From Aequorivita todarodis (GTDB lineage Bacteria > Bacteroidota > Bacteroidia > Flavobacteriales > Flavobacteriaceae): 64,000 bases of DNA. The position numbers were made by a program, and so were the translations under genes. A model generated the notes under the pieces. It made no database searches, was not told the DNA's origin, and was given only the letters and a program-made list of their open reading frames with translations. Location: contig NZ_JAQQTG010000016.1 in the NCBI RefSeq assembly GCF_028561335.1, forward strand, positions 67,704-131,703. Reading direction: 5' to 3'. This document shows, in pieces, positions 25,889 to 37,025 of this stretch (within the stretch, counting starts at the first letter, position 1; each line of letters starts with the position of its first letter).

Positions 25889-26275
25889 TTATTTTTCAAG
25901 GATTTCCCCAATATTCGGTTTGAAGTAATTGGGGCCTTTTAAGACCTTGCCGTCCTCGCGGTAAATAGGTTTTCCGTCATCGCCGAGCTTGCTCATATTG
26001 CTGCGTTGGATTTCGTTAAAAACTTCCTCAATTTTATGCTGCATGCCGTGTTCTATAATAGTTCCGCAAAGAATATAGAGCATATCGCCCAAAGCATCCG
26101 CTACTTCAACCAAATCATTATTGTTGGCAGCTTCCAGGTATTCCTCGTTTTCCTCGCGCATCAATTCGTATCGCAATAGGTTTTTCTTTATTCCGAGATC
26201 GGCGGTTGGGGTTTCGTTCCTTCCCAAACCAAATGCCTTGTGGAATTCGGAGACTGCAGCTATTTTGTTTTTCAT
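25889..26275 (-). CDS. MazG-like nucleotide pyrophosphohydrolase
   Basis: A 128-residue all-alpha protein of the MazG/PRA-PH superfamily. The metal-binding signature is ELMREENEEYLEAANNNDLVEVADALGDMLYILCGTIIEHG, with EExxE and ExxDxxxD arranged as expected (about residues 40-75). A short tail LGDDGKPIYREDGKVLKGPNY follows, typical of the phosphoribosyl-ATP pyrophosphohydrolase-like subgroup often seen in phages and bacteria. It probably cleaves a nucleoside triphosphate to monophosphate and PPi; substrate unknown. AT-rich heptamer-like text fills 25835-25885. Confidence 0.85.
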   Translation of the reverse strand: MKNKIAAVSEFHKAFGLGRNETPTADLGIKKNLLRYELMREENEEYLEAANNNDLVEVADALGDMLYILCGTIIEHGMQHKIEEVFNEIQRSNMSKLGDDGKPIYREDGKVLKGPNYFKPNIGEILEK

Positions 26276-26394
26276 ATTTTGTTTTTTTTGAATCAGGACT
26301 AAAGGGAGCCGGGAAACAGGACGAGGAGTGATAATTTCAAAAATTTGTCTTGATTCATTTAAAGTTCCGTTTTTCCACCTATGGCGGACAAGCC

Positions 26395-26480
26395 TTTCGT
26401 CCTGCTTCCCTTCCGTACGGATTCCTGTTTCCTGTTTCCTTTCGGTCCCGTTTCTTGAATCCTTCCAATCCTGTGTCCTG
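26395..26480. repeat. Degenerate heptameric CCTGTTT region
   Basis: The stretch repeats CCTGTTT and variants (CCTGTTTCCTGTTTCC, then CCCGTTT, CTTGAAT, CCTGTGT, CCTGTTT) with a period near 7 bp. It is non-coding and lies between the MazG-like gene and the next small gene. Confidence 0.65.
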
Positions 26481-26525
26481 TTTGCAAGTAAATCTCTATT
26501 TTTACAGCCTTAAAATTACAAATTT

Positions 26526-26714
26526 ATGTTCACTCCCGGCCAATTGATTTTTGCTGTTTTATTTTTTGTTGTCTTTGTAGGTGTCTTGATTTATAGCTAT
26601 CGGGGCGATAAGAAACTTCATAAAAAGCAATACAAAGGGAGTCTATGGGTTTTGGTGGGGTTTTTGGTTTTTGTGGGGTTGCTATTGCTCCTCAAAGGCC
26701 TGCTAAAGCACTGA
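26526..26714 (+). CDS. Small two-helix membrane protein
   Basis: A 62-residue protein with two membrane helices (LIFAVLFFVVFVGVLIYSY and LWVLVGFLVFVGLLLLLKGLL) joined by a short basic loop RGDKKLHKKQYKGS. I recognise the layout from flavobacterial genomes, but no function is assigned. It ends 80 nt before the first palindrome of the two-component regulon. Confidence 0.75.
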   Translation: MFTPGQLIFAVLFFVVFVGVLIYSYRGDKKLHKKQYKGSLWVLVGFLVFVGLLLLLKGLLKH

Positions 26715-26794
26715 TAAACATTCTGCTACATACATAAAAATTGTTTATAATACAATTTTTTATTCTTCTATTCCTTTCATAACTTGTTGAAATA

Positions 26795-26841
26795 TACCCT
26801 GTAACGGGTATTTCAGCCGCCAGATTTTTAATAAACATTTG
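26795..26841 (+). promoter_or_regulatory. Regulon site A: TACCC-N6-GGGTA plus -7 element, before the kinase operon
   Basis: TACCC (26795-26799), six bases, GGGTA (26806-26810). The -7 element AACATTTG is at 26834-26841, beginning exactly 24 nt after the last base of the palindrome. Outer bases extend the symmetry (TGAAAT and ATTTCA). Sites B, C and D share the same spacing. It would drive the lipoprotein-kinase-regulator operon, so the system may regulate itself. Confidence 0.7.
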
Positions 26842-26877
26842 TACGGTAAAACATCATTAATTCAAAAATTGTCACTC

Positions 26878-27399
26878 ATGCTTAAAATAAAGATTGTTTT
26901 TCTGAATATATTCTGTGCAATATTACTTTCTGCCTGCAATAGCAGTACTGGGGAGCGGACGGTAGAATTTGCTGTACCGGATTTTAACGATTTAGACCTT
27001 CAACAAATAAAAATAGATCATGATATTTGCAACGCAAAATGTGCTGTTTTAAAAGATGAATCGTGCTATGACCGAGAATCGGGAACTGCCATACTTTATA
27101 TTCCCGTTCCAAAGAGCCAATATCTTGTCCTAACCAAACAGGATGGCAATACTATCAATTTTGAAACCAGGGGAGGCGCTTTCTCTCCAGAATATTACAT
27201 TCTTAAGGTTAGACTTACGGGCTTGGAGCGAACTTCCGGCTCAAAATTGACAATAAATCTTGATATAAACAGCAGCCTCGATAGATGCGCTAAAGGAACG
27301 GACCCAAAAATTCTAGGTGTGAAGAAAAAAGGTTCAGTAATTACCGGCCATCCTCCAATGCAAGACTGTGTACCAGATGTTAAATGTATAGACAGATAG
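26878..27399 (+). CDS. Cys-rich lipoprotein of the two-component operon
   Basis: A 173-residue lipoprotein. The signal VFLNIFCAILLSAC ends in a lipobox (Cys about residue 20). The mature domain has seven more cysteines in pairs (DICNAKC, SCYD, RCAKG, DCVPDVKC) and beta-strand-rich sequence. No named family is recognised. The frame extends to TTG 26839, but that codon is part of the promoter's -7 element, so ATG 26878 is used. The kinase start overlaps its end by 16 nt, so the lipoprotein is probably a sensory or accessory partner of the kinase. Confidence 0.8.
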   Translation: MLKIKIVFLNIFCAILLSACNSSTGERTVEFAVPDFNDLDLQQIKIDHDICNAKCAVLKDESCYDRESGTAILYIPVPKSQYLVLTKQDGNTINFETRGGAFSPEYYILKVRLTGLERTSGSKLTINLDINSSLDRCAKGTDPKILGVKKKGSVITGHPPMQDCVPDVKCIDR

Positions 27400-29234
27400 C
27401 CCTTATTATAATTGCATTTTCCAGTTTTTTCTGTTTTGCACAGGAGGATTCCACCTATTATTATTTTGACCAGACCACGCCAGTTGAAGCTATCCAGTCA
27501 AAAGTTAATAGAACGAAAGACCCTTTTTTAAAATCATATTTCTCATTGGTCTATTTCAGCAAAATCAGGAATACAGATTCAATTGGTTATTACCTAAAAA
27601 AAGTAGAAGGCAAAAAGCAGTTTTTGCCACAACTTTTGCCGCGATTTTTATACTTAAAAGCATATTACCATAAAATTTCAGATAATGATTCACTCGCCTA
27701 CAAATATCATTATAATGCGCTGGACCAGGCAATAAAATTGAAAGATACCTTAACCATACTTAACAGTCTTAGCGGTCTTTCACAATCTTGGGACTACGTG
27801 GGAGATAACCATTATAGACTTGATTACCTTCAAAAACTTGAAAAAGCCGCAGCGGAATATAATAACAATAGATTTAGAATTATACACGATTATCTAAAAG
27901 GAAATTATTATTTGTTCCGCGATGAAAATGAGGCTGCCATTGCAAGTTATAAAAGAGTTATGGCATATACCTTTAATCAGCGGGACAGTAGTTTTCTCCT
28001 CAATACCTATGGCAATATAGGCGCATTATATGAGTCAAATCTTGAAAATTCAGACTCCGCAATTTTTTATTATCAGAAGAAATTACAACTCATTGAAACA
28101 AATCCTTCATTTGCACAAACTGAAAACTACCTGAATGTGTACAACAATCTTGGGCGGGCCTACGCTTCAAAAAAGGATTATGCAAATGCAAGAATGTACT
28201 TGCTGAAAGCGGCAAATTACAATACAACCAAGAACAAGGTTTTTAACGAGCTTATGATTACTGAAAATTTAGCCGAGGTAAACGCTGGCCTGGGCAATTT
28301 TGAGGAAGGCTATAACAATCTTAAAAAAGTAATCAAACTGTCTGATAGCTTGAAAGAAAAGGAACATCAGAAAAGTATTGCCAATATCATTGAAAACTTT
28401 GACAATAAAACTTTAAAAACCAATTTAAGGCAAAAAGAAATCCAACAACGCAATCTATGGCTTGGGGCTTCGGCCCTCCTATTTGTGGTTAGCTTAATTT
28501 CCTATTTAATTTTCAAAAACACAAGACGCAAACAGCGCATCGCCGAACAGCAACGTGAAATAGAAATTCAAAAAACCGAAAAAATATTAAAAGAGCAGGA
28601 ACTAACAACCATTGACGCAATGATCTCCGGACAGGAAAAAGAGCGCGAACGCCTCGCCGGCGACCTGCACGATAGCGTGGGCGCAACCCTGGCGGCGGCA
28701 AAGCTACAGTTTGACCATTTGGCAAAAAACAAGGAAAAAATAGGACAAATGGACGAACTGTTCACCAAGACCGGAGACCTGTTGGCCCAAGCCTATACCG
28801 AGGTGCGCGAAATGGCACACCTAAAAAACAGCGGTGTAATTGCCAAAAACGGCCTATTGCCCGCAGTGCAAAAACTGGCGAAAAATGCTTCGGGAACCAA
28901 TAAACTCGTCGTAGAAGTTGAAGATTTTGGGCTGGACGGAAGACTGGAAAACACGATGGAAATTACCATTTTCCGAATTATCCAGGAATTGGTCACCAAC
29001 ATCATAAAACACGCAAAAGCTTCCGAAGCAAGTATCTCCATAACCCAGCACAAAGACGCACTGAACATTATTGTGGAAGACAATGGCCAAGGTTTCGATA
29101 CAAAAAAAATACATACGAAAGACGGGATGGGCCTGGCCAATATTGAGCGCCGGGTGGAACATCTTGAAGGCAGTATGGAAGTAGATAGCACCAAAGGAAA
29201 AGGAACAACCATAATTATAGACATACCCTTATGA
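27384..29234 (+). CDS. TPR-containing histidine kinase (HisKA_3 type)
   Basis: A 616-residue sensor kinase. Signal-like N-terminus (IIIAFSSFFCFAQ), periplasmic TPR-type helical repeats over about 40-340, one membrane helix (LWLGASALLFVVSLISYLIF, about 355-375), a coiled coil, then the HisKA_3 domain with the phosphorylated His in GDLHDSVGATLAAAK (about residue 430), and an HATPase domain with N box and GQGFD and GMGLANI G boxes. This is the NarX/DegS-like kinase group that pairs with NarL-type regulators, and such a regulator follows with a 4-nt overlap. It probably senses envelope state together with the lipoprotein upstream. Confidence 0.93.
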   Translation: MYRQIALIIIAFSSFFCFAQEDSTYYYFDQTTPVEAIQSKVNRTKDPFLKSYFSLVYFSKIRNTDSIGYYLKKVEGKKQFLPQLLPRFLYLKAYYHKISDNDSLAYKYHYNALDQAIKLKDTLTILNSLSGLSQSWDYVGDNHYRLDYLQKLEKAAAEYNNNRFRIIHDYLKGNYYLFRDENEAAIASYKRVMAYTFNQRDSSFLLNTYGNIGALYESNLENSDSAIFYYQKKLQLIETNPSFAQTENYLNVYNNLGRAYASKKDYANARMYLLKAANYNTTKNKVFNELMITENLAEVNAGLGNFEEGYNNLKKVIKLSDSLKEKEHQKSIANIIENFDNKTLKTNLRQKEIQQRNLWLGASALLFVVSLISYLIFKNTRRKQRIAEQQREIEIQKTEKILKEQELTTIDAMISGQEKERERLAGDLHDSVGATLAAAKLQFDHLAKNKEKIGQMDELFTKTGDLLAQAYTEVREMAHLKNSGVIAKNGLLPAVQKLAKNASGTNKLVVEVEDFGLDGRLENTMEITIFRIIQELVTNIIKHAKASEASISITQHKDALNIIVEDNGQGFDTKKIHTKDGMGLANIERRVEHLEGSMEVDSTKGKGTTIIIDIPL

Positions 29235-29857
29235 TAACCGTAGCCATAGCCGAAGACCACCAAAGCCTCGTGGACGGCATAAACCTATTGCTGAAATATG
29301 AGGACGATATTTCCATCGTGGGCATGGCCAACGATGGCGAGGCCCTTTTGGATATTGTGCGGAAAAAGCAGCCGCAAGTAGTTTTAACCGATATAAAAAT
29401 GCCCAAAATAGACGGTATTGCCGTTGCGAAACTTATTAAAAAGGAATTCCCGCAAACAAGGATTATTGCTTTTACCATGTTCAACCAAGAGGAAGCAATC
29501 GCACAAATGGTGGATGCGGGCGCTTCGGGCTATTTGCTAAAGAACTCTCCTTTGGAAGAGGTGCTGAATGCCATAAAAGCCGTGGCGCAGGGCAATACTT
29601 TTTTTGACAGCGCCATAGATCTATCTTTTATGGATACCGATGCGGCCACCACTGAAAAAAAACCAATCCTTTCCAAAAGCGAGCGGGAAATATTGCGGTA
29701 CATAGGCCAAGGAAAATCTACCAGCGAAATAGCCGCATTGCGTTTTACCGCTGTTTCCACGGTAGAAAAACACCGCAAGAATATGATACACAAGCTGGGT
29801 CTTTCGGGCAAAGGGGAACTGTTGCGGTATGCGCTGGATAGGAAGTATGATTTTTAG
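29231..29857 (+). CDS. NarL/FixJ-family response regulator
   Basis: A 208-residue regulator. The receiver has EDHQ acidic residues near the start, phosphorylated D in LTDIKMPKIDG (about residue 56), and K in LLKNSP. The C-terminal LuxR-type helix-turn-helix reads LSKSEREILRYIGQGKSTSEIAALRFTAVSTVEKHRKNMIHKLG in outline (about 148-190). It overlaps the kinase by 4 nt. NarL-family proteins bind inverted heptamers spaced by two bases; the four TACCC-N6-GGGTA palindromes nearby have this 16-bp geometry and are its likely targets. Confidence 0.93.
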   Translation: MITVAIAEDHQSLVDGINLLLKYEDDISIVGMANDGEALLDIVRKKQPQVVLTDIKMPKIDGIAVAKLIKKEFPQTRIIAFTMFNQEEAIAQMVDAGASGYLLKNSPLEEVLNAIKAVAQGNTFFDSAIDLSFMDTDAATTEKKPILSKSEREILRYIGQGKSTSEIAALRFTAVSTVEKHRKNMIHKLGLSGKGELLRYALDRKYDF

Positions 29858-29886
29858 CTAACATCCTTATATACAGATTTTTAAAA

Positions 29887-29933
29887 TACCCTTTATTGGG
29901 TATTTTTTTGTGTCTTATTTCTGGATAATATTG
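29887..29933 (+). promoter_or_regulatory. Regulon site B: palindrome plus -7 element, before the T9SS delta-60 gene
   Basis: TACCC (29887-29891), TTTATT, GGGTA (29898-29902), then T7G and the -7 element TAATATTG (29926-29933), again 24 nt after the palindrome. The block from the palindrome to the -7 element is almost identical to site D. Because of the T run after the palindrome it might also end transcription of the regulator gene. Confidence 0.72.
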
Positions 29934-30008
29934 AGCTATGTGCTATCTAAACTTAAGATTCCAAACGTACAGCAATCAATTTATTCAAAATAACTAAAAT
30001 CAATACTT

Positions 30009-32783
30009 ATGAAACCACTACACAAAACATGTATTATTGCCTTTGCATTAATCACAACGATCGTCCAAAGCTTTGGACAGGCCCCGGGAACTTTTAATAC
30101 CACCTTTGGGAATGGCGGCATCTTGTCTAGACCCGTTAGGTATTCAAATTTTGTCACGGAAGATGTGGCATTACAGGACAACTTTTTGTTGGTAAGTGGC
30201 AGGCTAAATGCTAACTATGGAAATGAAAATATTGTGCTACGTTATGATGATAATGGCGCCATAGACAGATCTTTTGCTAACAATGGTGTTTTAAGTTTTC
30301 CTTTTGAAACAGGCACCGGCTATTCTACTATAAACACATTCCCCAATCACGATATTCTAGTCCATAATCTTGTAAATTCTACACCGCAGGAATTTTATCC
30401 GAGATTCTCAAGATACAATGCTAACGGCGTTTTAATTACTTCATTTGGAAACAATGGTTATTTTAATTTGGATTATTTACAACAAGATTTACGTATTCCC
30501 ACCAATCCAACGATTGACCCGAATACGGGAGATTTTGAAATTCCATTAAATGTTGTGACACCAAATCCAAATGACCTTTCATTTTTGGTAAAGGTAAAAA
30601 ACGATGGTACGGTGGATACAGGGTTTGGGAATAATGGCCAAACCGATAATTTTTTGGGACATATAGCAAGTATGGATAGAAATCCTTTTACAAGCAGTTT
30701 CTTTGAGGATATTTTTGGTGGGGCTCAAGGAGATTTAATCTTAGGCATAACATATCCTTATGCTGGATATTATCAATATGTAAATGATTCTGGAACTTTT
30801 ATCGATAACTCCGCAGATGATAGGGATGCGTTATTTGTAGGGCGCTTTTATGAAAGGGTTTTTATACAACTCAATACAAACCTTATGCTTTTTGATGGCC
30901 ATAATATTATGACCTTTCCGCTGGATGATCCCAATAATGTATACTCTTTTACAAATTTTTATCGCACCGCAAACCCTTCTCAAAAACCAGGGTTTAAAAA
31001 AATAAACGATAATGAATTTTTATTGTTTGGAGATTATTATTCAAATTTTTTGATAAGTAAAACTGTAAATGGCGGATTTGGGCTCAATACCTCTTTTGGA
31101 AACAACGGCAATGTAGAAGTTGAAATATCCCCAAACAATGAACCCAATGATGACAGGCTTATAGATTGTTTTCAAAAACCAAATGGTAAATTTATTTGTG
31201 CTGGGTATAGTGTCGTGTCAGGTTTAGACGGTAATAACTATGAAAAGTTATCAATGATTCAATTATTTGATAACGGAAATTTCGACACTAGCTTTGGTAG
31301 CAATGGAGTTAATCTCTTTGACAACGGTTATATAACAGGATCCGGACAAATACTTAATACAAATATAGAGAATCCATATATTCCATATAAACCGTGGATA
31401 GGAACGGTAAAAGAACCATTTACCCAAAAAACCAGTGTTTATATGGTCAACCCCCTCTTTGTACACCAAAATGGTTCCAATATTGGCAGACTAGATACGG
31501 AATACTTAGAGCTTGAACTCGCTGACACAGGTAAATATTTTGACCTAACCGAAACCAATCAATTTTCAGACGAAGTTGTTTTAGGAGTTGGATTTGTAAA
31601 AAACAATGATAATAATTTTGCCATGGTAAGGTTTAAAGAAGCAAATTCAAATGACTTTTTCTACAATAATTTCTATGGCTCGAATACCGATCAAATCCTC
31701 CAAACAGACATCAACAATGGCAGTGATGACAAAGCCACTTCCTTTGTAATCCAAAACGATAACGGCATCCAAAAAATACTCGTGGTGGGCGAGAGCAATG
31801 GCAATCTGGCCATGGCGCGCTACTTTGCCGATGGTGCCGATGCTGGCATTTTGGACGCCTCTTTTGGCAATGGCGGGATAATCTTTGCTCCAAGACCACT
31901 GACGACCACAGCCGAATTTATTCCCAATAAATCCATAAACGGCGATAATAGCCAGTTCTACATCTGCGGCGAGGAAACCGAAGGAACCACAAAACGCTTT
32001 ATGCTCAAAAAATTTGATGTCAATGGCGAGGTGGACGAAACATTTCTGGCTTATGACGAAATGGAAAATGCCAATGAAAATAAAGCAACCGATGTCCTGA
32101 AAACTTCAGACGGGGGATTCATAGTTATCGGAAAAACCTTCAACAATGGCGAACATATCCTCAAGATCAGAAAGTATGATAGTAGCGGGAATGCCGTTCC
32201 GTCCTTCGGTAACAATTCCTATATCTTTTTGAACACAAACGACGAAGTCTCGGAACTGACAGACCTTATAGAGCTGACAAATGGAGGGATAGCAGTGGTG
32301 GGATATTCTGAGGATGAACTATTGGTCATGGTCTTTAACGGAATTACCGGGGCAATGGATATTCCCTTCGCAAATAACGGAATATTGAGAGGTACTTTTG
32401 GTTATGATTCCATCCATCTAACCTCCGTTACCCAAGAAGATGCGACCAACATATTAATTTCAGGAACCAGCGAGCTGGATGGAAAGAAAAATGTTTTCAA
32501 TGCGAAAGTATATATTTCAGAGTTTTTGGGAGTGGTAGCGTCTTCGATAGAAACCCAAATAATAATATATCCGAATCCGGCTACCGATATTGTAATGATA
32601 GAACATCCTTTGAATATTTCCATCAATGAAGTTAGGATTTATGACCAAACTGGAAAATTACTCAGTATAAAATCCGAGAACGTGGATTCAATTTCAACTG
32701 AAAGCTTGGCCAACGGTTTATATTTTATCGAGATATACTCAGCTAAAGAAAAAATCACCAAAAAGGTACTCATCCAGAAATAA
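30009..32783 (+). CDS. T9SS-secreted delta-60 repeat protein
   Basis: A 924-residue secreted protein with a signal peptide (IIAFALITTIVQSFG) and many delta-60 repeats (TFGNGGIL, SFANNGVLSF, GFGNNGQ, SFGNNGNV, SFGSNGV, SFGNGGII), which form a beta-propeller-like surface domain. The last 75 residues are a type A sorting domain (IYPNPATDIVMIEHP to KKVLIQK), the signal for type IX secretion and surface attachment. It lies downstream of regulon site B with a leader of about 70 nt. Ligand unknown. Confidence 0.9.
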   Translation: MKPLHKTCIIAFALITTIVQSFGQAPGTFNTTFGNGGILSRPVRYSNFVTEDVALQDNFLLVSGRLNANYGNENIVLRYDDNGAIDRSFANNGVLSFPFETGTGYSTINTFPNHDILVHNLVNSTPQEFYPRFSRYNANGVLITSFGNNGYFNLDYLQQDLRIPTNPTIDPNTGDFEIPLNVVTPNPNDLSFLVKVKNDGTVDTGFGNNGQTDNFLGHIASMDRNPFTSSFFEDIFGGAQGDLILGITYPYAGYYQYVNDSGTFIDNSADDRDALFVGRFYERVFIQLNTNLMLFDGHNIMTFPLDDPNNVYSFTNFYRTANPSQKPGFKKINDNEFLLFGDYYSNFLISKTVNGGFGLNTSFGNNGNVEVEISPNNEPNDDRLIDCFQKPNGKFICAGYSVVSGLDGNNYEKLSMIQLFDNGNFDTSFGSNGVNLFDNGYITGSGQILNTNIENPYIPYKPWIGTVKEPFTQKTSVYMVNPLFVHQNGSNIGRLDTEYLELELADTGKYFDLTETNQFSDEVVLGVGFVKNNDNNFAMVRFKEANSNDFFYNNFYGSNTDQILQTDINNGSDDKATSFVIQNDNGIQKILVVGESNGNLAMARYFADGADAGILDASFGNGGIIFAPRPLTTTAEFIPNKSINGDNSQFYICGEETEGTTKRFMLKKFDVNGEVDETFLAYDEMENANENKATDVLKTSDGGFIVIGKTFNNGEHILKIRKYDSSGNAVPSFGNNSYIFLNTNDEVSELTDLIELTNGGIAVVGYSEDELLVMVFNGITGAMDIPFANNGILRGTFGYDSIHLTSVTQEDATNILISGTSELDGKKNVFNAKVYISEFLGVVASSIETQIIIYPNPATDIVMIEHPLNISINEVRIYDQTGKLLSIKSENVDSISTESLANGLYFIEIYSAKEKITKKVLIQK

Positions 32784-32832
32784 TGATTTAGAAAGCTTCA
32801 AATTTTGATTATAATTTTGGGGAGGTTGAAAT

Positions 32833-32866
32833 TACCCCGTTGAGGTACACTTTTAACGGGGTTTTC
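32833..32866 (+). terminator. Terminator of the delta-60 gene
   Basis: The stem ACCCCGTT (32834-32841) with AACGGGGT (32855-32862) is followed by TTTT. It separates the delta-60 gene from site C. Confidence 0.75.
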
Positions 32867-32891
32867 AATTTGAAATAAAACAGTTCAAAAA

Positions 32892-32938
32892 TACCCCCCA
32901 CAGGGTATTTTTTTTGCCCCCACCCCACCCTACTTTTG
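32892..32938 (+). promoter_or_regulatory. Regulon site C: palindrome plus -7 element, before a candidate small RNA
   Basis: TACCC (32892-32896), CCCACA, GGGTA (32903-32907), and the perfect -7 element TACTTTTG (32931-32938), again exactly 24 nt after the palindrome. No ORF follows; the transcript would run into the terminator at 32974-33009. Confidence 0.72.
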
Positions 32939-32944
32939 AAACAG

Positions 32945-33009
32945 GACAATTCTTGAGGAGGTTTTGTTCTCACAAAAGGGCACTATTCCATTATAGCTGC
33001 CCTTTTTTT
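32945..33009 (+). ncRNA. Candidate small RNA, about 65 nt
   Basis: This is the short transcript expected between promoter C (start about 6 nt after TACTTTTG) and a strong intrinsic terminator: AAAAGGGCA (32974-32982) pairs with TGCCCTTTT (32998-33006), extended by CTAT/ATAG, then seven T. There is no ATG inside, so it is not a peptide gene. The free 5' part holds GAGGAGG, which could pair with CCTCC-type sequences. Function unknown; it would be made when the response regulator is active. Confidence 0.55.
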
Positions 33010-33042
33010 ATTTCACGTATAACCGCTTGATATTCAAAAAAA

Positions 33043-33089
33043 TACCCTTTATTGGGTATTTTTTTGTGCCTTATTTCTGGATAATATTG
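33043..33089 (+). promoter_or_regulatory. Regulon site D: palindrome plus -7 element, before the secreted thioredoxin operon
   Basis: TACCC (33043-33047), TTTATT, GGGTA (33054-33058) and TAATATTG (33082-33089), with the same 24-nt offset. The sequence from palindrome to -7 element is nearly identical to site B (one base differs in GTGTC/GTGCC). The first gene starts 174 nt downstream, so a long leader is predicted. Confidence 0.72.
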
Positions 33090-33137
33090 AAATATAAAAT
33101 TTGACATCAAGAAAATCAAAACATAAACCGGAAATAT

Positions 33138-33183
33138 GATTAAATGTCAAACACGGGAATAGGTTTCAAAGCGTGTTTTAATC
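33138..33183 (+). promoter_or_regulatory. Hairpin in the long leader of operon D
   Basis: GATTAAA-[TGTCA bulge]-AACACG (33138-33155) pairs with CGTGTTTTAATC (33172-33183), giving 12 pairs with one bulge and a 16-nt loop. It has no T run, so it is not a terminator. It could be a binding or stability element in the 170-nt leader. Confidence 0.45.
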
Positions 33184-33263
33184 ATTGGAAAAAAAATGAT
33201 TCGGAAGCTTCAAATAGACACAGAATATAAAAATATCTAAAATTAACCTTAAAAAATACCATC

Positions 33264-33692
33264 ATGAAAACTGTTTACGCAATCATATGTTTCGCAATAA
33301 CCATCGTATCTCCGTTTCATTGTTTATCACAGACCCGCAATTTCGACGGTATATGGACAGCAAAAATGACTACCAATGAGGGTAAAACCTTCACACTTAA
33401 GCTCTATATTGAAGACAACAATGTGCACGACACTGTTGAAGATGATGAAGGCAACTTAAGGGGATATTATGGAAAGGAAGTGATAATAAGCAAGGGCTAT
33501 GGAGAGCATCTCACTTTCGTATGGATGGACAAAGGGCAGGTATGGACTGAAACCCAAATATATTCCATTGTCTGGATTAATTCCCAAAATCTGTCTGTTA
33601 CCCATATACGCCACGTTAGCAATAAAAAAGACAATTCAGGAATAAACACGGACTGGCATTATACATCCACAGGCATTTTAAAGAAAACCTAA
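33264..33692 (+). CDS. Secreted hypothetical protein, first gene of operon D
   Basis: A 142-residue protein with a signal peptide (YAIICFAITIVSPFHCLSQ, cleavage near residue 24). The mature domain RNFDGIWTAKMTTNEGKTFTLKLYIEDNN looks like a lipocalin-like or small beta-barrel start (GxW followed by alternating strands). No named family is recognised. It probably shares the site D transcript with the thioredoxin gene about 100 nt downstream. Confidence 0.7.
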   Translation: MKTVYAIICFAITIVSPFHCLSQTRNFDGIWTAKMTTNEGKTFTLKLYIEDNNVHDTVEDDEGNLRGYYGKEVIISKGYGEHLTFVWMDKGQVWTETQIYSIVWINSQNLSVTHIRHVSNKKDNSGINTDWHYTSTGILKKT

Positions 33693-33790
33693 AGATTTTG
33701 AGTTATATCCCTTAAAGCAATTCCCTACGACGGCCATTTTTAGAGCTCAGACAAAATTTAGATTTGAATATTAACCAAACAAACAAGATC

Positions 33791-34519
33791 ATGAAAAAAG
33801 TAATTAAACTCGCCTTTTATCTTGTCCCATTTTTAATGTTGGGACAAGCAAAGACCATCACGGATAGTGATTTTATAAGCATATTGGAAACTAGCAATAA
33901 ACCGTTTGTTGTTGATTTTTACGCCACTTGGTGCGGGCCTTGCAAAAGAATGGAACCCATTTTGGACAAACTGGCCAATGAATATAAGGGTCTTATAGAT
34001 TTTTACAGATTGGATGTTGATAAAAACCAATCTGACGATGCTTTGGACATTGAGGCCATTCCCACATTTTATTTTTTCAATGAAGGGAATGTGGCATTTA
34101 TAAAAGAAGGTGCTATTTCAAAAGAAGATTTTATATTTCTAATAAAATATGCTTTTGATATATATATTCCAGATAGCGTGAGCACTTCAAATTCCTCCGA
34201 TTCCCCAAATGAATTTAGTGATGAAGAAATACAAGCCAAATGGGACAATTGGAAATCGCTTAATAGTTTGGCTTGGCATGGGTATCAAAAACATAACGAA
34301 CCGGAGGTATTATCCAAATGCATTAAGCTGGCAATTCGTTCTATTGAGTTAAATGAGAATTATTATAATGTGGATACTTATGCTGCTTTGTTGTATAAAA
34401 CAAATGAGCACAGTAAGGCCTTGAAACAGGCGAAAAGAGCCATTGAACTTGCCATAAAAGATGACTTGGACTACAGTTCGACAACCTTATTGATCAATAA
34501 TATTATTGAGAAACTTTGA
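33791..34519 (+). CDS. Secreted thioredoxin-domain protein
   Basis: A 242-residue protein. Signal peptide LAFYLVPFLMLGQ, then a thioredoxin fold with the WCGPC active site (about residues 46-50) and the cis-proline in IEAIPTFYFF. After about residue 130 a helical TPR-like tail follows (LAWHGYQKHNEPEVLSKC, then TYAALLYKTNEHSKALKQAKRAIELA). The periplasmic location suggests a disulfide reductant or isomerase role on envelope proteins. ATG 33791 is preferred over an upstream TTG because it begins the signal peptide. The next gene follows 23 nt later. Confidence 0.88.
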   Translation: MKKVIKLAFYLVPFLMLGQAKTITDSDFISILETSNKPFVVDFYATWCGPCKRMEPILDKLANEYKGLIDFYRLDVDKNQSDDALDIEAIPTFYFFNEGNVAFIKEGAISKEDFIFLIKYAFDIYIPDSVSTSNSSDSPNEFSDEEIQAKWDNWKSLNSLAWHGYQKHNEPEVLSKCIKLAIRSIELNENYYNVDTYAALLYKTNEHSKALKQAKRAIELAIKDDLDYSSTTLLINNIIEKL

Positions 34520-34542
34520 AAAATCTTCAAAATTTAAAAATC

Positions 34543-34911
34543 ATGAAAAATCTAAAAAAAACATTCACTATAATATTCATTACCCTAACTTCTTTCTGTT
34601 TTTCCCAAACAGCTGCATATTATTGTTCGCAAACCGGTGCAGTAGGATTTTGTTATGGCTACGGAAACGTTAAAGAATGTGCTTATAACCAGGCATATCG
34701 TTATGGAGCCACAAATCCCCAGCTTATATTAAATTACAATGGTAAAGGTTATGGCGCTTTGGCTGTTGGAACGAATAGTTATGGCATAAGGGTAGTTGGT
34801 ATCGCTGCTGGATATGATTCGCTTTCCAGGGCGAGCAATGTGGCGTTTCGGGAATGTAGAAAACGTGGAGGCACAGGCATTTATATTTCAGATACGTGGT
34901 TGGACCAGTAA
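34543..34911 (+). CDS. Secreted Cys-containing protein, DUF4189-like
   Basis: A 122-residue protein with signal peptide FTIIFITLTSFCFSQ. The mature part has four cysteines (YYCSQTG, GFCYGYG, KECAYNQA, RECRKRGG) and a repeating pattern of glycines and small residues that recalls DUF4189 (A.yG...A...C). The match is by eye and tentative. ATG 34543 is chosen at the signal peptide. It is the last gene before a strong terminator and may be a client of the thioredoxin upstream. Confidence 0.65.
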   Translation: MKNLKKTFTIIFITLTSFCFSQTAAYYCSQTGAVGFCYGYGNVKECAYNQAYRYGATNPQLILNYNGKGYGALAVGTNSYGIRVVGIAAGYDSLSRASNVAFRECRKRGGTGIYISDTWLDQ

Positions 34912-34927
34912 TTTCATTTCACATAAA

Positions 34928-34964
34928 AACCTCCCAAAACATTAGCCTGTTGGGAGGTTTTTTT
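34928..34964 (+). terminator. Terminator of the secreted thioredoxin operon
   Basis: AACCTCCCAA (34928-34937) pairs with TTGGGAGGTT (34950-34959), followed by a T run. Confidence 0.85.
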
Positions 34965-34985
34965 TATGAATAACGAATGCATCAG

Positions 34986-37025
34986 TTAATTCACCGCAGG
35001 CAAATTGCTATAGTTTTTAGAATAGAATAACATCTGCTCTGCAAAGGTCTTTGGCTGTTCTATGGTGAAACTTTCAATCTCGCCGTTCGCGTCCATTTTT
35101 GGGACAAGCACGGGATTCACAAAACCGCTGTAAGGCGCAGAAGTGAATTGCTTGTTGCGCTCCAAAATTTCCTTGTGAAGTTTTTGGTCCACCTTTACAC
35201 CGTAAGTTTCCACTAATTTTTCAGCAGCTGCGTAATCGCCTTCACTTTTTATGCGCTGTGTTTCGCGAAGCAATTGCCCGAAAAGGTCGTGCAGTTTGTC
35301 GTAATCATTGATGTTGAAATAGGTTTTTCCGTCGCGGGTAATTTTTTCAATTACATTGTCCTTTTTGCCGTGCTCATAAGCCCAAGCGGAAACCCATTGG
35401 CGGTTGCGCATATGTGCCTCTTCAACGTCATCGCCTAAATTTAAGCGGATCAATTGCGTCATCAATCCATTGCGGATGTAACCGTCGTACGCCGCCATTC
35501 CCACTCTTTTCCAATCGCCAACCAAACCGAGTTCCTGTAATTTCGGATTGTACAAATAGTAAAGACCCACCAAATCGGCACGACCCTCTTCCAAAGTGGA
35601 AGCGTAGGTTTTAAGTGTTTCTTTGGTTTCGCCCACGCCGGGATTCAATTGTCCGGAAGCGTGGCCTATTACTTCGTGAAGCGCGGTGTGGAGTTTATCG
35701 GCAAGTTGGCCGTATTTTTCCTCCAACTCAATTTCGGTGGAATCGTTCGCGAATTCTTTCAACCTACCCGTATTTCCTGCGTTGTTATAGGCATCAATAA
35801 TATTTCCGAGGGAAACAGATTTACTGCCCACGGCTGCACGGATCCAATTTGCGTTTGGAAGGTTTACCCCAATTGGCGTGCTTGGGGAGGCATCGCCAGC
35901 TTCGCCGGCAACATTCACTACCTTGTATGTTACGCCCACTACGTTTTTCTTTTTATGCTCAGGCATCAATGGGGAATTGTCCTCAAACCACTGCGCGTTT
36001 TCTGAAAGGACCGCCATTTTTTCCGACATATCAAAATCATTTATCTGCACAATGGTTTCATAGGAACCTGTATAGCCCAAGGGGTCATTATACACTTCAA
36101 TAAAACTGTTTATATAATCTATGTTTCCTTGGGTTGCGGCAGTCCAGGCTACGTTGTAATCGTCCCAGGTTTGGAGGTCTCCCGTTTTGTAATATTCAAT
36201 CAAAAGACCGATTGCATCGCCCTGCGCCTTGTTTTCGGCTACTCCCTGTGCTTTTTCAAGCCAGCCAATTATTTTGTCAATCGCCGGGCCGTAGAGTCCG
36301 CCCGATTTGTAAACCAATTCCTTGAGTTCGCCATTTTCCTTTACCAATTTTGAATTCAACCCGAAAGACAATGGCTTTTTAGGATCTGGTGATTTCTTTG
36401 TAGCATAAAAATTTTCTACATCCTTCTTTGTAACGTCTGGGCCGTAGAAGTTAACGGCGCTTTCCAAAACATTATCTACCCCCTTGGCCTGGTTTACTTT
36501 TTTGGAATCGGCATCGTTGAAGATTACATCAAAAGCCTCGCCTTCCAAGGTGGTGTTGGTATCGGTTAAAAGTTGTTTTAAGTATTCCGAAGAAAATTCC
36601 GGTTTCAACTTATCATTGGAATAATGATGGTGAATACCGTTGCTGAACCAGACCCTTTTCAGGTAGGTTTCAAAATTTTTCCAATCGTCCGTGGTTTTAT
36701 CGCCTTTATAATTGACATACACATTTTCCAAAGCCTTTCTGATGGTTAGGTTGTGGCGGTAGTTTTGGTCCCACATAATATCCCGTCCTTCCAGACCGGC
36801 CTGGGTTAGATAGTACACAAGTTTTTGTTCCTTTAGGGTAAGCTTGTCCCAACCCGGAATTTGGTAACGCAGAATTTTTACATCGCCAAACGATTCCACA
36901 TTATAGTCAAACTCTGCGGATTGTACTGTTTCCGCTTGCGCTACGGGCTTCTCATCTTTGTTTTCCTTACAGGAAAAAAACAACAGACCGCACACTGCCA
37001 TTGCAATAAAAAAGGTATTCTTCAT
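34986..37025 (-). CDS. Dipeptidyl peptidase III (M49) lipoprotein
   Basis: A 679-residue zinc peptidase of family M49. The zinc motif HEVIGHASGQ (about residue 450) is the characteristic HExxGH, and the third ligand is in EEGRADLVGLYYL (about 478). It begins with a lipoprotein signal (MAVCGLLFFSCKEN), so it is anchored in the envelope rather than cytosolic. The enzyme removes N-terminal dipeptides. Bacteroidetes DPP III is typically this size. It has its own promoter (TACATTTG on the minus strand at 37051-37058). Confidence 0.92.
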   Translation of the reverse strand: MKNTFFIAMAVCGLLFFSCKENKDEKPVAQAETVQSAEFDYNVESFGDVKILRYQIPGWDKLTLKEQKLVYYLTQAGLEGRDIMWDQNYRHNLTIRKALENVYVNYKGDKTTDDWKNFETYLKRVWFSNGIHHHYSNDKLKPEFSSEYLKQLLTDTNTTLEGEAFDVIFNDADSKKVNQAKGVDNVLESAVNFYGPDVTKKDVENFYATKKSPDPKKPLSFGLNSKLVKENGELKELVYKSGGLYGPAIDKIIGWLEKAQGVAENKAQGDAIGLLIEYYKTGDLQTWDDYNVAWTAATQGNIDYINSFIEVYNDPLGYTGSYETIVQINDFDMSEKMAVLSENAQWFEDNSPLMPEHKKKNVVGVTYKVVNVAGEAGDASPSTPIGVNLPNANWIRAAVGSKSVSLGNIIDAYNNAGNTGRLKEFANDSTEIELEEKYGQLADKLHTALHEVIGHASGQLNPGVGETKETLKTYASTLEEGRADLVGLYYLYNPKLQELGLVGDWKRVGMAAYDGYIRNGLMTQLIRLNLGDDVEEAHMRNRQWVSAWAYEHGKKDNVIEKITRDGKTYFNINDYDKLHDLFGQLLRETQRIKSEGDYAAAEKLVETYGVKVDQKLHKEILERNKQFTSAPYSGFVNPVLVPKMDANGEIESFTIEQPKTFAEQMLFYSKNYSNLPAVN

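Follow-up and report, generated by a model that had tools for sequence, protein, structure and literature searches.

What is the function of four copies of one palindrome that lie within 6.3 kb of each other, each at the same distance from a promoter-like element? The question is raised by a 64,000-nt stretch of Aequorivita todarodis DNA (contig NZ_JAQQTG010000016.1), hereafter the window, which belongs to a genome of 3.33 Mb in 51 contigs (G000). The sequence TACCC-N6-GGGTA occurs four times in the window, with starts at 26795, 29887, 32892 and 33043, against 0.01 copies expected from shuffled windows; four copies were reached in 0 of 100 such windows. Our analysis indicates that the palindromes are very probably activator operators of the NarL/FixJ-family response regulator encoded at 29231..29857, which would drive its own operon, a beta-propeller protein, a small RNA and a thioredoxin operon. 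The sites and their predicted -7 elements are as follows.

26795..26810, + strand: operator A, TACCCTGTAACGGGTA, upstream of the lipoprotein–kinase–regulator operon
26834..26841, + strand: -7 element of promoter A, AACATTTG, whose first base is A, not T
29887..29902, + strand: operator B, TACCCTTTATTGGGTA, 29 nt past the regulator stop codon
29926..29933, + strand: -7 element of promoter B, TAATATTG
32892..32907, + strand: operator C, TACCCCCCACAGGGTA, with a counterpart in genome G001 at L096:9718
32931..32938, + strand: -7 element of promoter C, TACTTTTG
33043..33058, + strand: operator D, TACCCTTTATTGGGTA
33082..33089, + strand: -7 element of promoter D, TAATATTG

At all four sites, a gap of 23 nt separates the palindrome from the -7 octamer, so that the octamer starts 24 nt after the last palindrome base. 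Promoters A, B, C and D match 5, 5, 6 and 5, respectively, of the six fixed bases of TAnnTTTG, the Bacteroidota housekeeping -7 element; over the 754 intergenic bases examined, the per-position frequency of a match of at least 5/6 is about 0.02. The same element characterizes Flavobacterium psychrophilum promoters, where the published study places it at -12 to -5 (PMC9723704), and the palindrome centre is therefore placed at about -43.5. Sites B and D differ at one of 48 bases, counted from the palindrome through the base after the -7 element. These observations bear out the sequence-only reading, which had listed the four palindromes at these positions, a -7-like element starting 24 nt after each of them, a centre near -44, and the near identity of B and D.

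The palindrome is linked to the regulator across relatives. We used 65 of 80 regulator loci (1.00 Mb; regulators at least 47% identical), namely L116-L181 minus L180. Of the 15 loci left out (L180 and L182-L195), L187 (Lacinutrix, 61% identical) was excluded solely through its list position, and the others have regulators that are partial or distant. TACCC-N6-GGGTA is present in 49 copies in 26 of the 65 loci; 19 permuted half-sites of the same composition gave 0-2 copies each, and spacers of 0-5 and 7-12 likewise gave 0-2 copies each, against 49 for the spacer of 6. Fourteen of the 49 sites lie just after the regulator, 16 around the start of the kinase operon (1.5-4.5 kb before the regulator), and 19 elsewhere. 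When relaxed TACCY sites are counted as well, a site is found just after the regulator in 22/65 loci, and no more than 1.7 kb upstream of the kinase open reading frame (ORF) in 16 of the 54 loci having such an ORF. Genes related to both window flanks surround the locus in 12 of 20 regions examined; one flank has an aminotransferase class IV gene, a PRA-PH-domain gene or the 62-aa frame, and the opposite flank a peptidase M49 gene.

The spacing is conserved together with the palindrome. With both strands counted, TTTG at gap 27, which corresponds to TAnnTTTG at gap 23, was found 22 times after the 49 strict sites and 25 times after 42 relaxed sites; the next-best offsets, gaps 4 and 3 within the T-run, reached 9 each. 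On the better strand, at least five of the six -7 bases stand at gap 23 in 42/49 sites. A family-wide search of 199 genomes for the whole module, with gaps of 20-26 allowed, returned 39 matches, 32 of them at gap 23, and a backwards control returned one. The module is present in 16/45 genomes with the regulator (E ≤ 1e-40) versus 9/154 without it (Fisher p 1.9e-6, ignoring kinship). In 84 promoters from the 65 loci and the window, the central TA is conserved (75% and 81%), and the unselected positions are A-rich before and T-rich after the palindrome. The stem is constant across relatives while the loop and the spacer vary, a pattern that a protein site would produce but a terminator would not. 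Finally, downstream frames of at least 80 codons within 150 nt start 17-30 nt after the -7 element in 20 of 27 cases, which fits the activator reading. The linkage, the fixed -7 spacing, the constant stem and the start-codon distance all fit activator sites of the adjacent regulator, and the proposal that the regulator activates through these sites is supported.

The genes of the locus are listed below.

26878..27399, + strand: putative lipoprotein, first gene of the operon, with a lipobox-like LSAC (by eye) and no Pfam or NCBIfam match
27384..29234, + strand: sensor histidine kinase with TPR repeats, HisKA_3 and HATPase_c
29231..29857, + strand: NarL/FixJ-family response regulator with Response_reg and GerE, the predicted operator binder
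30009..32783, + strand: Delta-60/DUF5122 beta-propeller protein, the target of B, carrying a C-terminal type IX secretion signal
32943..33009, + strand: predicted small RNA of about 67 nt, a hairpin with GAGGAGG in its loop region and then an intrinsic terminator
33264..33692, + strand: 142-aa protein with a signal-like N-terminus (by eye) and no family match, first after D
33791..34519, + strand: thioredoxin-domain protein with a signal-like N-terminus (by eye)
34540..34911, + strand: 123-aa protein with a signal-like N-terminus (by eye) and no family match, probably the last gene of the D operon

The regulator is a member of the NarL/FixJ (LuxR-type) family, scoring 92.7 bits with Response_reg and 45.5 bits with GerE, both above the cut-offs. 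Among proteins of solved structure it is closest to VraR, DesR and NarL, and its residues D9, D54 and K104, which we take to be the conserved receiver residues including the phospho-acceptor Asp and the Lys, are invariant in 25 aligned relatives. Because it stays below both curated NCBIfam cut-offs, those of the NarL equivalog (114.4 bits; cut-off 250) and the UvrY/SirA/GacA equivalog (111.3 bits; cut-off 280), it is neither a NarL nor a GacA orthologue. The top NCBIfam match, MctR (177 bits; cut-off 300), was set aside; the literature listed for it yielded nothing beyond a study of a rhizobial pyruvate symporter. The regulator of Aequorivita viscosa (NZ_FNNS01000001.1) is 85% identical to that of the window. 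No nitrate-respiration enzyme was found among the seven local proteins scanned.

We infer a circuit in which the kinase, whose TPR part is probably periplasmic, would phosphorylate the regulator in response to an envelope signal; the kinase has a signal-like N-terminus and one later hydrophobic segment (by eye). The phosphorylated regulator dimer would bind the 16-bp 7-2-7 site centred near -43.5 and, placed beside RNA polymerase, would activate promoters with the Bacteroidota -7 element. Activation is the likeliest reading, judged from the position of the sites. The circuit would thereby raise its own operon via promoter A, whose -7 element lacks the first T, and switch on the type IX-secreted beta-propeller protein from B, the small RNA from C and the exported thioredoxin operon from D.

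The missing first T of promoter A follows a rule found in relatives. Leaving aside sites with fewer than four of the other five -7 bases, the first -7 base is not T in 30 of 31 same-strand sites lying 1.5-4.5 kb before the regulator (15 C, 13 G, 2 A), and it is T in 42/46 sites after the regulator (4/46 not T). A narrower count gave 15/16 sites without T no more than 1.7 kb before the kinase ORF versus 3/35 downstream (p 4e-9, uncorrected), and window promoter A, with an A at this position, obeys the rule. We read the kinase-operon promoter as a conserved weak autoregulatory promoter, and the predicted autoregulation has counterparts in other genomes.

By a crude test, 20/27 of the downstream frames look exported, versus 171/360 long control frames (p 0.009). 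The outputs vary by genus, and include a PD40 propeller protein, an LRR protein with a type IX signal, and acidic lipoprotein-like and PEGA-like proteins (by eye; no model matched). Seven of the ten outputs scanned had no Pfam match at E 0.01 (L105 9497, L106 14863, L096, L108, L112, L098 and L103). The gene between the site and the kinase also differs by genus and could be the partner of the sensor. We also observed a Cys-Trp-Ala-Ala papain-like segment in the first frame after a site at L105:14522-15100, at L101:10372-10614 and in L111 after 6441; a Peptidase_C70 match at L105:14522-15100 is below the cut-off. In Aquimarina atlantica, the frame after the post-regulator site (L122:8654) starts in a way that presumably resembles an NHLP-type natural-product leader peptide.

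Downstream of promoter C there is no long reading frame; instead a two-hairpin RNA of about 67 nt is predicted, closed by an intrinsic terminator and followed by operator D. A small RNA had been named among the targets from the window alone, and we found counterparts behind such sites in four other genomes (G001, A. viscosa, G106 and G152). In all five RNAs the first hairpin holds GGGG or GGAGG and a terminator-like hairpin follows. The folding z-scores are -4.9 for the window, -5.2 for G001, -1.6 for A. viscosa, -4.3 for G106 and -3.5 for G152; the A. viscosa RNA is weak, since 12/200 shuffles fold equally well. The shared G-run in the first hairpin has a frequency of 0.05-0.15 in shuffles of each of the five RNAs, values whose product would assume independence. 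The window RNA is single-copy in its own genome, and Rfam covariance models gave no match at E up to 1 over window positions 26000-35000. A nucleotide search of 28 genomes of the genus found a convincing match in the RNA's own genome only, the other matches being pieces of 17-51 bases with E of at least 0.0015; the counterparts in G001 and A. viscosa were identified from their position and form instead, and a MAFFT alignment left the first hairpins out of register. As a candidate role we considered a CsrB/RsmZ-like sponge. Searches for CsrA/RsmA (PF02599) gave 0 matches in the window's genome, with the control positive in 3 of 14 named genomes, and the hairpin G-runs of A. viscosa and G152 lack GGA; the sponge was rejected, a Csr-type role being unlikely because no CsrA was found in the genome.

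Several observations weigh against our reading of the sites as operators of the adjacent regulator. In the whole genome the bare palindrome is not in excess, because a backwards control pattern is equally common (6 copies, against 5 of TACCC-N6-GGGTA). What is distinctive is the clustering, with four of the five genome copies inside 6.3 kb of 3.33 Mb, together with the fixed -7 element; the fifth copy lies inside a 517-codon open frame and has no -7 element at gap 23 on either strand. A genome scan for the whole module, which had been proposed as a check, added no signal when up to two mismatches were allowed (34 matches versus 48 in the control), and we therefore claim no further sites in this genome. 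Among the relatives, several of the 65 loci come from close kin (e.g., Aquimarina), and the counts and p-values, which ignore kinship, therefore overstate independence. The strict pattern is absent from 29/45 regulator genomes, some of which are explained by relaxed TACCY sites, and, conversely, 9/25 site-bearing family genomes have no close regulator. Two members of the genus keep sites although neither has an intact regulator gene at the locus. The G001 locus has lost the kinase and retains a frameshifted regulator remnant (L096:9361-9685), with three sites kept, one of them relaxed. In G025 (L097) there is no recognisable kinase or regulator at the locus, and one site with a -7 element stands before an exported-looking protein. 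In addition, two of the three base-contact positions of NarL presumably differ here.

These genomes lead to the alternative that survives best, namely that the palindromes are a shared operator of many Bacteroidota LuxR-type regulators, and that a paralogue, or several regulators and not this one alone, would be the main binder of the local sites. The exact module is spread across the class Bacteroidia, with 37 matches in 25/295 genomes, none for the backwards control, in 17 families besides the window genome's own; a search with a longer pattern found no match among 39 genomes from the order's other families. A gene for a LuxR-type helix-turn-helix (HTH) protein was found in 5/20 site regions outside the family, versus 0/20 other regions of the same genomes; the 20 site regions together hold 22 of the 37 class-wide sites. 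In three of these five the site lies 19, 43 and 140 nt after the gene, and no such gene is nearby in the other 15. As a separate observation, G386 and G445, of one genus (L238-L244), hold five and six module copies, most with a similar spacer, and one of these seven regions has a LuxR-HTH gene. Because genomes without the close regulator keep sites, the operator is probably common to related regulators and not private to that of the window.

A source of other binders is suggested by LuxR-HTH proteins or stretches of about 100-127 aa without a receiver, which directly follow the regulator in several genera and are 36-44% identical to the one of L096.

L096:10008-10391: receiver-less LuxR-HTH
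L110:9696-10076: receiver-less LuxR-HTH
near L124 8705-9061: receiver-less LuxR-HTH
near L130 8754-9056: receiver-less LuxR-HTH
near L165 8731-9057: receiver-less LuxR-HTH
near L133 8880-9194: receiver-less LuxR-HTH

A strict or relaxed site with a -7 element precedes the receiver-less protein in four of the six (L096, L130, L165 and L133); in G001 the relaxed site stands before an intact protein of 127 residues that has a GerE domain but lacks a receiver. Such paralogues are possible competitors or co-regulators. Among the nine site-bearing genomes without the regulator, five match the receiver-less protein at 1e-8 and four do not; the proteins matched in the five could be ordinary regulators. 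Beside the site of G177, which is one of the nine, there are matches resembling the regulator and the kinase. In the window, a search with the receiver-less protein convincingly matched only the regulator itself. This result, the concentration of four of five own-genome palindromes around the regulator, and the sites surrounding its orthologue in the loci of the 65 relatives make it rather unlikely that other proteins, alone or along with the regulator, are the main binders of the local sites. The original claim that the regulator binds these sites is supported by the linkage across genera, with the amendment that the operator is not private to this regulator, given the 17 other families and the 9/25 genomes without the regulator.

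Another possibility would be that the regulator acts as a repressor. The sign of regulation is not readable from sequence alone, and NarL represses some promoters, such as frdA, according to one report (PMC4549865). This reading is improbable, since the centre near -43.5 lies upstream of the core promoter and one gap is kept in 32/39 matches. Repressor sites usually overlap the -7 element or the start, and vary in position.

It is very improbable that the palindromes are intrinsic terminators, hairpins followed by T-runs whose -7 spacing is incidental. All four can fold (-9.4 to -16.0 kcal/mol), a T-run follows three of them, and B directly follows the regulator gene. A terminator, however, does not need a fixed TACCC stem, and several sites have no T-run. 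In the 65 loci, 29/70 T-run-bearing 5-6-5 hairpins with the TACCC stem have a -7 element at gap 23, versus 8/139 with other stems, and on this comparison with like hairpins we rejected the terminator as the main explanation. Site B could serve as both operator and terminator. By eye, a separate hairpin, CCCCGTT...AACGGGG followed by TTTT, lies at 32835-32865 between the delta-60 gene and operator C, which is therefore not needed as the terminator of that gene. That the sites arose by copying of a single mobile or duplicated promoter fragment and have no regulatory meaning, as the near identity of B and D over 48 bases might suggest, is hardly credible: outside the constrained positions, A and C have little in common with B and D, and in relatives the stem and the -7 element are kept but the spacers vary.

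The activator reading can be set beside known systems. To our knowledge, few Bacteroidota two-component regulons have a known operator. In pseudomonads, the GacA site TGTAAG-N6-CTTACA is found upstream of Rsm small-RNA genes. The present locus resembles that system in having a NarL/FixJ regulator and a palindromic upstream site before a small-RNA gene, a potential, palindromic GacA site being described in the literature (PMC2375449). It differs in that no CsrA/RsmA gene was found, the regulator is below the GacA cut-off, the operator adjoins the promoter, and most targets are protein genes. The likeness to E. coli NarL operators (ogt, yeaR-yoaG and the engineered narG -89 site) lies in the 16-bp inverted repeat and the same Pfam architecture of the regulator. 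NarL binds 7-2-7 sites as a dimer, and an engineered high-affinity site, TACCCCTAAAGGGGTA, has the form TACCC-N6-GGGTA (PMC4549865). In a study of ogt, a single improved 7-2-7 site at -44.5 supports transcription, there uncoupled from nitrate (PMC7419079). A further shared feature would be that one site, at -44.5 or directly before the core promoter, suffices for activation. Unlike in NarL systems, a Bacteroidota -7 promoter replaces -35/-10, the spacing is locked, the central TA and the A/T flanks are conserved, and the regulator is not a NarL orthologue. Because the engineered NarL site has the same form and NarL can activate from -44.5, the mechanism is of a known kind.

The sequence-only reading knew of no description of this regulon, and none appeared among the literature matches listed, where a Bacteroidota operator locked to the -7 element is likewise not described. 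Nor do those matches describe the kinase-operon promoter without the first T, the two-hairpin small RNA of five genomes, the receiver-less paralogues beside the regulator, or the class-wide spread of the module. The terms 'palindrom' and 'LuxR' are absent from the main text of the F. psychrophilum paper (PMC9723704).

To conclude, the locus represents a real and conserved circuit, probably activating and mechanistically of a known kind, in which several features are new. A wider proposal, for and against which we see the case as evenly poised, is that Bacteroidia have a standard activator-promoter module, TACCC-N6-GGGTA followed after 23 nt by TAnnTTTG, on which many NarL-family regulators act. 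The locus, which in many genera lies between the aminotransferase/PRA-PH pair and peptidase M49, would then be a circuit complete in itself, in which the feedback promoter is weak and the outputs can be exchanged: exported proteins in some cases, in others a small RNA with a G-loop or a receiver-less LuxR-HTH protein, the last possibly competing with the regulator for the same sites. An exact, searchable site and spacing would allow the targets of NarL-family regulators to be read directly from many Bacteroidota genomes. As a natural case, the circuit has feedback and output promoters told apart by one -7 base, at -12, and it suggests that small RNAs and receiver-less regulators belong to the same wiring. 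The site and promoter layout of a marine bacterium thus recurs in distant relatives.

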